Virus record (IMG/VR): IMGVR_UViG_3300031857_001301 | Location: 1 to 24,769 of that record | Reading direction: 5' to 3' (one strand) | DNA length: 24,769 nucleotides | From: a virus | Shown: in pieces, positions 329 to 10,893 of the stretch | Position numbering within the stretch: position 1 is the stretch's first letter | How the letters are laid out: each line of letters opens with the position of its first letter | The notes under the pieces: model-generated | Told to the model about the DNA's origin: nothing | Seen by the model: only the letters and a program-made list of their open reading frames with translations | Database searches by the model: none | Translations under genes and position numbers: made by a program

Positions 329-495
329 TTGATGAGAGGGGTATCTCACAATAAGATAGTAAGCACTTGTAAGTTATAGACCTATCTTAAATCAACTTAC
401 AAGCGGGGCAAGAATCCCTCCCCAATTCCAGTTATACCTACAACATTTCTCTACATACTGGCAAACTCTAAGAAATGCGTGGGATTTCTCCCAAC
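329..495 (-). ncRNA. structured spacer RNA 2, two H-type pseudoknots and three hairpins
   Basis: This 167-nt spacer between tRNA-Asp and tRNA-Glu has no ORF and is almost fully accounted for by pairing modules in series. In transcript order (high to low coordinate) they are: hairpin 481-492 (GGGA-GAAA-TCCC, a GNRA-type loop); pseudoknot 428-432:457-461 interlocked with 444-450:471-477; hairpin 405-408:420-423; pseudoknot 366-375:394-403 (10 bp, perfect) interlocked with 352-359:382-389 (8 bp, perfect); hairpin 333-337:344-348. Each pseudoknot has the alternating order A-B-A'-B'. It does not fit a tRNA and no tmRNA tag ORF is visible. It could be a phage stable RNA; its function is unknown. 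Confidence 0.6.
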
Positions 496-9789: not shown

Positions 9790-10225
9790 TTTCAATATCA
9801 GTAGACTGATGAACATGACCTTCTTTTTGCATTTGCATTTCTGAGGGTGTCCACCATCCGGAGGCAAGAGCAGAAATTGCTGCTGTCAAAATTGCCAGAA
9901 GAACGCCACAACCAACAGTCATCCATTTTATCTTGGAAATATCTTTTATCTCATCTTCAATATCATCAATTCTTTTGGATACTAAATTATGTTGCTCTCG
10001 ATTTTCTTCTTTCAATTCATCAATCATTCTTGTTATGACAAGATCATTTTTCCCGCCCTGATCTATTCTTTCATCGTGAACAGCTAACATTTTACTAATG
10101 TTCTGGCTGGTTTTGCCCATTATTTGAATGGCTTCATCTATTTTTTTCAACATTAGTTCATAAGAAGAAAGTCTTTCTTCCAAAACAGCAATTTTTGTAT
10201 CGGTTGAGGTATTTTGATTAAACAT
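9785..10225 (-). CDS. coiled-coil protein with one C-terminal membrane segment
   Basis: A 146-aa protein. Residues 10-105 are predicted coiled coil (heptad-like leucine/isoleucine pattern, many Glu/Lys, KIAVLEERLSSYELMLKKID), followed by a single hydrophobic helix (about 108-127, MTVGCGVLLAILTAAISALA) and a short His-containing tail. The topology, long coiled coil then one membrane span, resembles haemolysin XhlA-like phage lysis proteins, but the protein is longer and I cannot confirm homology. The start is the ATG at 10225 (MFNQNTSTDTK); the frame is open 14 codons upstream only to a TTG. It lies at the end of a run of late genes, so a structural or lysis accessory role is equally possible. 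Confidence 0.75.
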   Translation of the reverse strand: MFNQNTSTDTKIAVLEERLSSYELMLKKIDEAIQIMGKTSQNISKMLAVHDERIDQGGKNDLVITRMIDELKEENREQHNLVSKRIDDIEDEIKDISKIKWMTVGCGVLLAILTAAISALASGWWTPSEMQMQKEGHVHQSTDIEK

Positions 10226-10292
10226 TTCTAACTTTAAGGTAGATAGAATTTCCCTACTACAAAACAAATACCCCAGATAGTAGTATTAGAAT

Positions 10293-10300
10293 TATTTATT
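10293..10300 (-). promoter_or_regulatory. possible late promoter AATAAATA
   Basis: One mismatch to the late box, 68 nt before the ATG at 10225. The spacing is longer than usual here. Confidence 0.3.
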
Positions 10301-10520
10301 ATTTTGGTTTCATCCATTTTTTTCTCGAACCCAATCCAAGATAAATATTTTTCTTTTTGTTTTTAAAGACTGGAGGATTTCCTGGGTCTGCTTGAGGAGT
10401 ACCTGCGATTTGCCCACCACCAACATTATTAGTCGGCGTAGAAATTATCCCCTCTTCCTTCAATTGAATATAGTTACGAAATGTTTCTACTATTTTATCA
10501 ATCTTTTTCTTCTTTTCCAT
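10299..10520 (-). CDS. small cyanophage-type protein with basic C-terminus
   Basis: A 73-aa protein starting MEKKKKIDKIVETFRNY, with a Gly/Pro/Thr-rich flexible middle (NNVGGGQIAGTPQADPGNPP) and a basic end NIYLGLGSRKKWMKPK. The tail KKKxIYLGxGSRKxWM recurs, as I remember it, in small T4-like cyanophage proteins of unknown role. The start is the ATG at 10520, overlapping the upstream gene by 23 nt; the frame is open 13 codons further to a TTG. It sits in a late operon with the structural genes, so a minor virion component is likely. Confidence 0.7.
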   Translation of the reverse strand: MEKKKKIDKIVETFRNYIQLKEEGIISTPTNNVGGGQIAGTPQADPGNPPVFKNKKKNIYLGLGSRKKWMKPK

Positions 10521-10893
10521 TGTAAATTTTGTAAAGTTCTGACATACAATATAAATCAACTTGAATATCGTGAATACCTGATTTTGGGTATTCTGGTAAT
10601 CTGTTGAGAAATAATATAAAAGATTTTATAGAAGACCACAACTCTTTTTCTATTTTAAAGAATAGCATTGGAGTTGTTGCCTCACCAAAGATATTATAAA
10701 GAATAATAAAATGATTTAAAATGAGATGGGTTTTTAATTCACCATCTCTTTTATATCTTTTAAGCAGTCTTTTGATATATTTAAAATGATTTAAATCTTT
10801 ATCAAAATCTTCTTTTGTAACTGCCTGTGGGTTTTGATAGTTTTTTATTGCAAATAATAAAAAATTATCCTCATTCAACTCATTAAAAATCAT
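10498..10893 (-). CDS. conserved T4-like cyanophage protein, unknown function
   Basis: A 131-aa, helix-rich protein beginning MIFNELNEDNFLLFAIKNY, with the basic stretch FKYIKRLLKRYKRDGELKT and hydrophobic helices around LNHFIILYNIFG. I recall a widely conserved cyanophage protein with this N-terminus, always uncharacterised. It starts 7 nt after the stop of the 340-aa structural gene and overlaps the next gene by 23 nt, so it is cotranscribed with probable virion genes from the late promoter at 11958-11965. Confidence 0.8.
   Translation of the reverse strand: MIFNELNEDNFLLFAIKNYQNPQAVTKEDFDKDLNHFKYIKRLLKRYKRDGELKTHLILNHFIILYNIFGEATTPMLFFKIEKELWSSIKSFILFLNRLPEYPKSGIHDIQVDLYCMSELYKIYNGKEEKD

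Follow-up and report, generated by a model that had tools for sequence, protein, structure and literature searches.

The window analysed here is a stretch of 24,769 nucleotides of viral DNA (positions 1 to 24,769 of IMG/VR record IMGVR_UViG_3300031857_001301). On its minus strand, tRNA-Asp(GTC) at 495-567 (ARAGORN and Rfam) and tRNA-Glu(TTC) at 254-328 (ARAGORN; Rfam places it at approximately 254-328) flank a spacer that carries a structured RNA. Because both neighbouring tRNAs lie on the minus strand, the spacer RNA is read on that strand, from 494 down to 329. Compared with shuffled sequences, the spacer folds with a z-score of -2.1 on the minus strand (6 of 200 shuffles were as good) and -0.6 on the plus strand. 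The RNA module is approximately 154 nt long (329-482, minus strand) and starts just past the trailer hairpin of tRNA-Asp; its last base is the one preceding tRNA-Glu, whose 5' end it abuts. The covariance models R1 and R2 score it at 153.7 and 77.3 bits, respectively, and find one copy in the window. The first-pass annotation had described the interval as free of open reading frames; three (53, 53, and 36 aa) do overlap the spacer, but all of them run into the tRNA genes. The tRNA-Lys...Asp-RNA-Glu...Phe unit may start at a candidate sigma-70 promoter upstream of tRNA-Lys (TTGACT-17-TATTCT, 1181-1153, minus strand), which matches the consensus at 9 of 12 positions.

Several other features of the array, all on the minus strand, were noted in passing. 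The stretch between tRNA-Arg and tRNA-Lys (1102-1525) is conserved in approximately 30 related arrays, including that of S-PM2, and contains a T4-type late promoter TATAAATA, a terminator-like hairpin, a promoter-like site before tRNA-Lys, and a short ORF of 33 aa, MTYPMPTKQFSSLDCRYWHIAGTPLFADMVGQM, read by eye and conserved in relatives. Beside tRNA-Arg is a 102-aa ORF (1591-1899), by eye a putative HNH endonuclease, with the late-type promoter TATAAATA upstream. The segment 866-955 is probably a tRNA-Tyr(GTA) whose variable arm is long; ARAGORN missed it, and Rfam weakly called it tRNA-Sec. The tRNA-Gly/tRNA-Ala spacer at 643-786 is foldable by eye and had no homologue among the fetched loci.

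Four segment pairs reported at first pass, 352-359:382-389, 366-375:394-403, 428-432:457-461, and 444-450:471-477, are exact reverse complements at those positions, and both helix pairs interlock in an A-B-A'-B' arrangement. Judged from this single sequence, the suggestion that a junk spacer would not show such a fold holds for only one of the two pseudoknots: the 8+10 bp pair was found in 0 of 3000 dinucleotide shuffles, whereas a 5+7 bp pair arose in 14% of them. Comparative evidence is therefore needed for the shorter pseudoknot, and such evidence exists for both. The three hairpins in the same annotation also fared unequally. Those at 333-348 and 405-423 are not conserved, and their bases instead form a long-range helix that had been overlooked, P3 (334-340:416-422), with an extension (344-349:408-413). 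The hairpin at 481-492 (minus strand), GGGAGAAATCCC, is real and directly follows tRNA-Asp; it is probably an element of the tRNA-Asp trailer, since S-PM2, which lacks the spacer RNA, has a similar hairpin after its tRNA-Asp.

Homologues were collected from phage records and IMG/VR contigs, the latter designated by L-numbers (S-SKS1 is L318). A blastn search of the spacer against 50,697 phage records returned one true match, in Synechococcus phage S-CREM1 (44178-44330, 74% identity), where the RNA also lies between tRNA-Asp and tRNA-Glu and shares an identical 30-nt stretch, ATAACTGGAATTGGGGAGGGATTCTTGCCC, with the window; S-CREM1 remained the sole true match in these records when several homologues were used as queries. 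A gapped DNA pattern built on the conserved core identified 11 tRNA-array contigs in IMG/VR, a second pattern added 35 more, and a pattern excluding the usual P2 pair added three (L281, L296, and L299). The covariance model R1, built from 12 sequences with a consensus structure from RNAalifold, scores 48 loci (35 distinct sequences) at E<=1.2e-11 and revealed a divergent copy, missed by blastn, in the freshwater phage S-CRM01 (135609-135761, E 2e-8), although these E-values are rough. In total there are 51 homologous loci, 49 in IMG/VR contigs and two in the cultured cyanophages S-CREM1 and S-CRM01. With the window, the 52 loci represent 39 distinct sequences, as many of the contigs are near duplicates.

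When 19 positive records (up to 249 kb) were searched whole, each contained exactly one copy of the RNA, and a search of the whole of S-PM2 found none. Among 15 whole cultured cyanophages searched with R2, copies occurred only in S-CREM1 and S-CRM01 and not in the other 13. Several searches gave no further members: patterns requiring the exact core had zero matches, the sole match of the pattern GGGAGGGATTC..GAGATACCC (L005) was a chance match, and a loose pattern retrieved 110 contigs with no true homologue on inspection. A scan of 84,980 prokaryote species, made with the pattern that recovers the phage copies, gave 17 matches, all treated as apparent chance; the best of them reached only 18.6 bits with R1 and, by eye, had no matching P1 and P3.

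The first helix in the direction of transcription, P1, is formed by GCATTTCTT (470-478, minus strand) and GAGAAATGT (443-451, minus strand). It is 7-9 bp long, and its sequence changes almost completely among homologues: CATTTCT/AGAAATG in the window is replaced by CATTCTTC/GAAGAATG, ACGTCAT.CC/GGaATGACGT, TCATCATC/GATGATG, TCCTTCAC/GTGAAGGA, GCCTTCC/GGaAAGGC, or ACTCAACT/AGTTGAGT. In alignment A4, sequences of the S-CREM1 type have a wrongly placed gap in P1, and P1 pairing there consequently shows 85.8%; we added an alignment-free test in which strands were swapped between homologues. Own partners had a mean energy of -11.17 kcal/mol compared to -7.25 kcal/mol for swapped partners (sd 0.52), and 0 of 10000 permutations were as good. 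P2, the pseudoknot partner of P1, joins CCAGT (457-461, minus strand) to ACTGG (428-432, minus strand) and is paired in all sequences. CCAGT/ACTGG is found in nearly all homologues, and in S-CRM01, L281, L296, and L299 it becomes CTAGT/ACTAG, a C-G to U-A change on both sides; S-CRM01 was found by the covariance model and not by a pattern requiring the usual P2. As four of the five P2 pairs are invariant, the support for this helix consists of one double change in two groups together with perfect conservation. Judged by covariation, P1/P2 is an H-type pseudoknot with a nearly invariant core.

P3 pairs GGGAGGG (416-422, minus strand) with CCCTCTC (334-340, minus strand). All seven pairs are changed on both sides among the homologues, and 100% of alignment cells pair; some phages have GGAGAATAA/TTATTCTC or GAAAGACA/TGTCTTTC instead. 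In the strand-swap test own partners gave -14.28 kcal/mol and swapped partners -12.71 kcal/mol (sd 0.26), and none of 10000 permutations did as well. The extension, separated from P3 by a small internal loop, pairs TCTTGC (408-413, minus strand) with GTGAGA (344-349, minus strand); 98.6% of cells are paired, and three of five extension pairs show double changes. One locus, L176:12644-12800, is a recombinant copy with a 5' half of the L159 type and a 3' half of another type, and its P3 is weak, with only 4 good pairs.

P3 and its extension enclose the second pseudoknot, in which P4 is an exact 10-bp match between CTTGTAAGTT (394-403, minus strand) and AACTTACAAG (366-375, minus strand) and P5 an exact 8-bp match between TAAGATAG (382-389, minus strand) and CTATCTTA (352-359, minus strand). 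Homologues have GTAAGTT/AACTTAC, GCAAGTC/GACTTGT, or CACAAGTTG/CAACTTGTG at P4, and AAGATAG/CTATCTT, GAGATAG/CTATCTC, TGAGTTAG/CTAACTCA, or GGAGTAG/CTACTTC at P5. This apical region is exchangeable, and by inspection the P3 caps fall into three types. Type A (the window, S-CREM1, L008, L021, L199, and L238) is the P4/P5 pseudoknot. Type B combines a hairpin with a pseudoknot of GGATT/AATCC and ACGAAG/CTTCGT, which in S-CRM01 reads GAGTT/AACTC and CAGTT/AACTG, and type C is a single hairpin with a conserved, partly self-complementary stretch, GATTTTAAATC. Compensatory changes in P4/P5 were judged by inspection of types A and B.

Taken together, P1, P2, P3, and the extension pair in 95.0% of cells, compared to 42-57% in controls with the partners offset by 1-3 columns. 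Double changes occur in 16 of 26 pairs, compared to 8.6 in shuffles. The locus thus has what is expected of a conserved structured RNA, compensatory changes in P1, P2, P3, and the P3 extension, with those in P4 and P5 seen by inspection, and the proposal that paired bases would change with compensation in related phages is borne out for the main helices. One could still argue that the helices arose by chance or through recombination in a spacer that is mere junk, as a 5+7 bp pseudoknot is common in shuffles and the arrays do recombine, as the L176 hybrid shows. The compensatory changes throughout the helices and the complete absence of the 8+10 pseudoknot from the shuffles leave this explanation with next to no probability, and we regard it as near certain that this is a structured RNA and an RNA family. 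Rfam 15 (4227 models) at gathering score returned only tRNAs, and the covariance-model check proposed earlier found no match for the spacer (329-494) even at E<=10; the copies of L281 (at E<=10) and S-CRM01 (at E<=1) likewise had none. The paper on non-coding RNAs of S-CREM1 lists only abiF, wcaG, manA, and glnA besides tRNAs (PMC9964418), and we found no description of the RNA in the open-licence literature. The spacer RNA thus looks like the product of an RNA gene from a previously undescribed family that T4-like cyanophages carry in their tRNA operons.

The arrays that carry the RNA hold 4-29 tRNA genes, and its position within them is precise. The 3' boundary lies within 1 nt of an ARAGORN tRNA 5' end in 46 of 52 loci (Glu 39, Pro 3, Arg 2, Ile 1, and Val 1), and L220, where the tRNA is called by Rfam, brings the total to 47. 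In L218 the RNA runs to the contig end, and in L230 the next feature is an ORF that looks by eye like an HNH endonuclease gene. Upstream, the RNA usually adjoins tRNA-Asp; in L172, L196, and L230 the upstream neighbour is a manA RNA that ends 0-2 nt before the spacer RNA. L281, L296, and L299 carry the RNA without adjacent tRNAs, as the last part of a promoter-led RNA gene that has no tRNA in it. The order in L299 is a TTGACA-17-TATAAT promoter, a leader pseudoknot, a second folded element, the RNA, and the promoter-like site of the next gene. The promoter, the leader, and the downstream site recur in S-SKS1, whose next protein is 92% identical, but this phage lacks both the second folded element and the RNA. 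The RNA can therefore be present or absent independently of tRNAs, an argument against its being nothing more than a spacer for tRNA processing.

Two further conserved elements were observed in these phages. The leader is a second pseudoknotted RNA, located directly after the TTGACA-TATAAT promoter and, in arrays, before tRNA-Arg. It occurs at L007:2911-3000, L013:7779-7867, L018:4798-4887, L241:4421-4509, and in L281, L296, L299, and S-SKS1 (L318:1055-1150). It consists of a hairpin, AGTTGAGAAATCAACT, and the interlocked helices TGCTCC/GGAGCA and GTAGGTTC/GAACCTAC, the former varying as TACTTC/GAAGTA and CATTCC/GGAATG; the L281 leader had no Rfam match. A third conserved element, AAGGTAAGGAAAG..GGAGCATGGGA..GATACCGCACCTGCCTT, closed by AAGG/CCTT, is found at L011:1711-1786, L188:2485-2543, in L017, in L008 upstream of tRNA-Arg, and in L281, L296, and L299. 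It directly precedes the double-pseudoknot RNA in some phages and lies elsewhere in the array in others.

We propose that the spacer RNA is a new non-coding RNA family that is excised from tRNA-operon transcripts by tRNA-processing enzymes and acts in trans, with a host factor as its probable binding partner, a reading that we favour with some reserve. The RNA would be co-transcribed with the tRNAs from a host-type promoter. Its excision from the tRNA transcript is likely: the fixed abutment to tRNAs suggests that the 3' end would be generated by RNase P when it frees the 5' end of the tRNA that lies downstream, and the 5' end by 3' processing of the upstream tRNA or RNA. As no tRNA follows the RNA in L230, L281, L296, and L299, another enzyme must make the 3' end there. 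As covariation shows, the RNA folds into the P1/P2 pseudoknot, after which comes the long helix P3 with the exchangeable apical domain at its tip; this cap forms a second pseudoknot in the window and in relatives of types A and B, and one hairpin in those of type C. Once released, the RNA may act in trans, and its most likely role would be to engage a host protein encountered during infection, as a structural ligand or decoy. Action in trans is suggested by the single copy in each of the 19 records although arrays reach 29 tRNAs, by the tRNA rather than protein gene that follows the RNA in arrays, and by the tRNA-free RNA gene behind a promoter in L299, with the corresponding S-SKS1 site lacking the RNA. 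The decoy idea draws on the abiF RNA in the arrays of the same phages, next to which the S-CREM1 annotation shows no abiF gene. By analogy, our first guess for the target is an RNA-binding defence toxin, to which the RNA would be a phage-borne antidote. Precedents are phage PhiTE, which evades ToxIN through RNA-based mimicry (PMC3475682), and the AbiF system of Clostridioides difficile, which is encoded by a phage and regulated by RNA (PMC12373285).

Other functions would fit parts of these data. The RNA could serve tRNA maturation in cis, by guiding RNase E and RNase P to their places on the polycistronic tRNA transcript, by setting their pace, or by protecting tRNA-Asp and tRNA-Glu against decay, in keeping with its usual location between these two tRNAs and its abutment to the downstream one. 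Such an element would not be expected only once per array among up to 29 tRNAs, to be followed by five or more kinds of tRNA, or to be kept without an adjacent tRNA in three contigs, and the Asp-Glu pair of S-PM2 manages with a 56-nt spacer that lacks the RNA; we consider this function unlikely, if the strongest of the competing ones. The highly conserved pseudoknot core could also suggest a riboswitch that senses a metabolite, or an attenuator, comparable to glnA or to manA and wcaG, which are candidates for such a role, the more so as L172, L196, and L230 have a manA RNA directly beside the spacer RNA and some of the same contigs contain wcaG RNAs. A riboswitch would lie in the 5' UTR of a regulated gene and have an expression platform. 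In the arrays the next element starts within approximately 1 base, and 47 of 52 loci have a tRNA there, leaving no gene to switch, and a terminator scan of the spacer found only the 481-492 hairpin. Because a tRNA directly follows the RNA, this role is improbable.

Interlocked helices around a small invariant core resemble the architecture of small ribozymes, and a self-cleaving ribozyme that cuts the array transcript would share these features with the spacer RNA. RNase P should already cut at that end, the RNA is present as a single copy per array, and no Rfam ribozyme matched at E<=10, which makes self-cleavage very unlikely. Returning to the excised, trans-acting RNA, a wider and distinctly speculative extension, which we hold to be rather doubtful, is that the tRNA arrays of cyanophages serve as cassettes of several RNAs for taking over the host or countering its defences, in which the double-pseudoknot RNA, manA, orphan abiF RNA, leader pseudoknot, and tmRNA would be released together by tRNA-processing enzymes and the double-pseudoknot RNA would represent a new class of inhibitory RNA directed at a protein of host defence or translation.

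An RNA family with compensatory main helices enlarges the short list of structured RNAs in phage tRNA arrays and suggests that tRNA operons may be phage delivery systems for other small RNAs. As two cultured phages carry the RNA, its transcription, processing, and function are open to direct test. The arrangement of these arrays also casts doubt on the manA RNA always being a cis-regulatory leader.

The spacer RNA was finally compared with known RNAs. GOLLD and ROOL are phage-borne, occur near tRNA islands, and have complex folds and an unknown function (PMC12286853). The spacer RNA resembles them in being phage-borne, beside tRNAs, and complex in fold. It differs in size, since many GOLLD members exceed 800 nt, while the module is approximately 120-160 nt, not the many hundreds of GOLLD or several hundred of ROOL, and GOLLD and ROOL form nanocages; with no Rfam match to either, the earlier idea of a GOLLD/ROOL member was rejected. 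The accompanying alternative, a structured RNA with two pseudoknots that is possibly a new class, stands, given 39 distinct sequences with compensatory changes and no Rfam match. The manA RNA is likewise a structured RNA of T4-like cyanophages that abuts tRNAs (tRNA-Leu/manA/tRNA-Asn in S-CREM1), but it is approximately 200 nt long, and its model (RF01745) matches beside the spacer RNA and never on it; wcaG has no Rfam match on the RNA either. manA is a candidate cis-regulator, often of sugar-metabolism genes (PMC2864571). In S-CREM1 (10132-10643), L172, L196, L230, and L238 it adjoins tRNAs or the double-pseudoknot RNA with no protein gene directly downstream, which is a poor fit to a purely cis-regulatory role.

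Small RNAs such as the abiF RNA and the type III RNA antitoxins, including ToxI, bind a toxin protein. ToxI is itself a pseudoknot RNA (PMC5772629), and the abiF RNA (RF03085) occurs inside the same tRNA arrays (S-CREM1 10531-10567 and L230:12045-12081), possibly as a phage-carried RNA antitoxin against a host toxin. The spacer RNA is larger than these, has two domains, and lacks tandem repeats, an adjacent toxin gene, and a model match. A type III antitoxin locus, with tandem pseudoknot repeats and a toxin gene, was rejected, as each record has one copy and the neighbours are mostly tRNAs. Phage tmRNA (RF01851, RF04321) has pseudoknots and occurs in the same arrays, for example at L233:1572-1827 (RF01851 and RF04321), and ARAGORN calls permuted tmRNAs in L017, L165, L202, L222, and L252; array tmRNA tags such as ANNIVAFSRSKSTALV and ANKIVAFSRSKVATLV end in LV rather than the usual AA. 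The spacer RNA, in contrast, has no tRNA-like domain or tag reading frame, and neither ARAGORN nor Rfam finds a one-piece or permuted tmRNA at 329-494. The T4 tRNA cluster encodes two small, stable RNAs that have long lacked a known role, RNA C and RNA D (species 1 and 2), whose likeness to the spacer RNA is purely positional: in different hosts, both lie between phage tRNAs.
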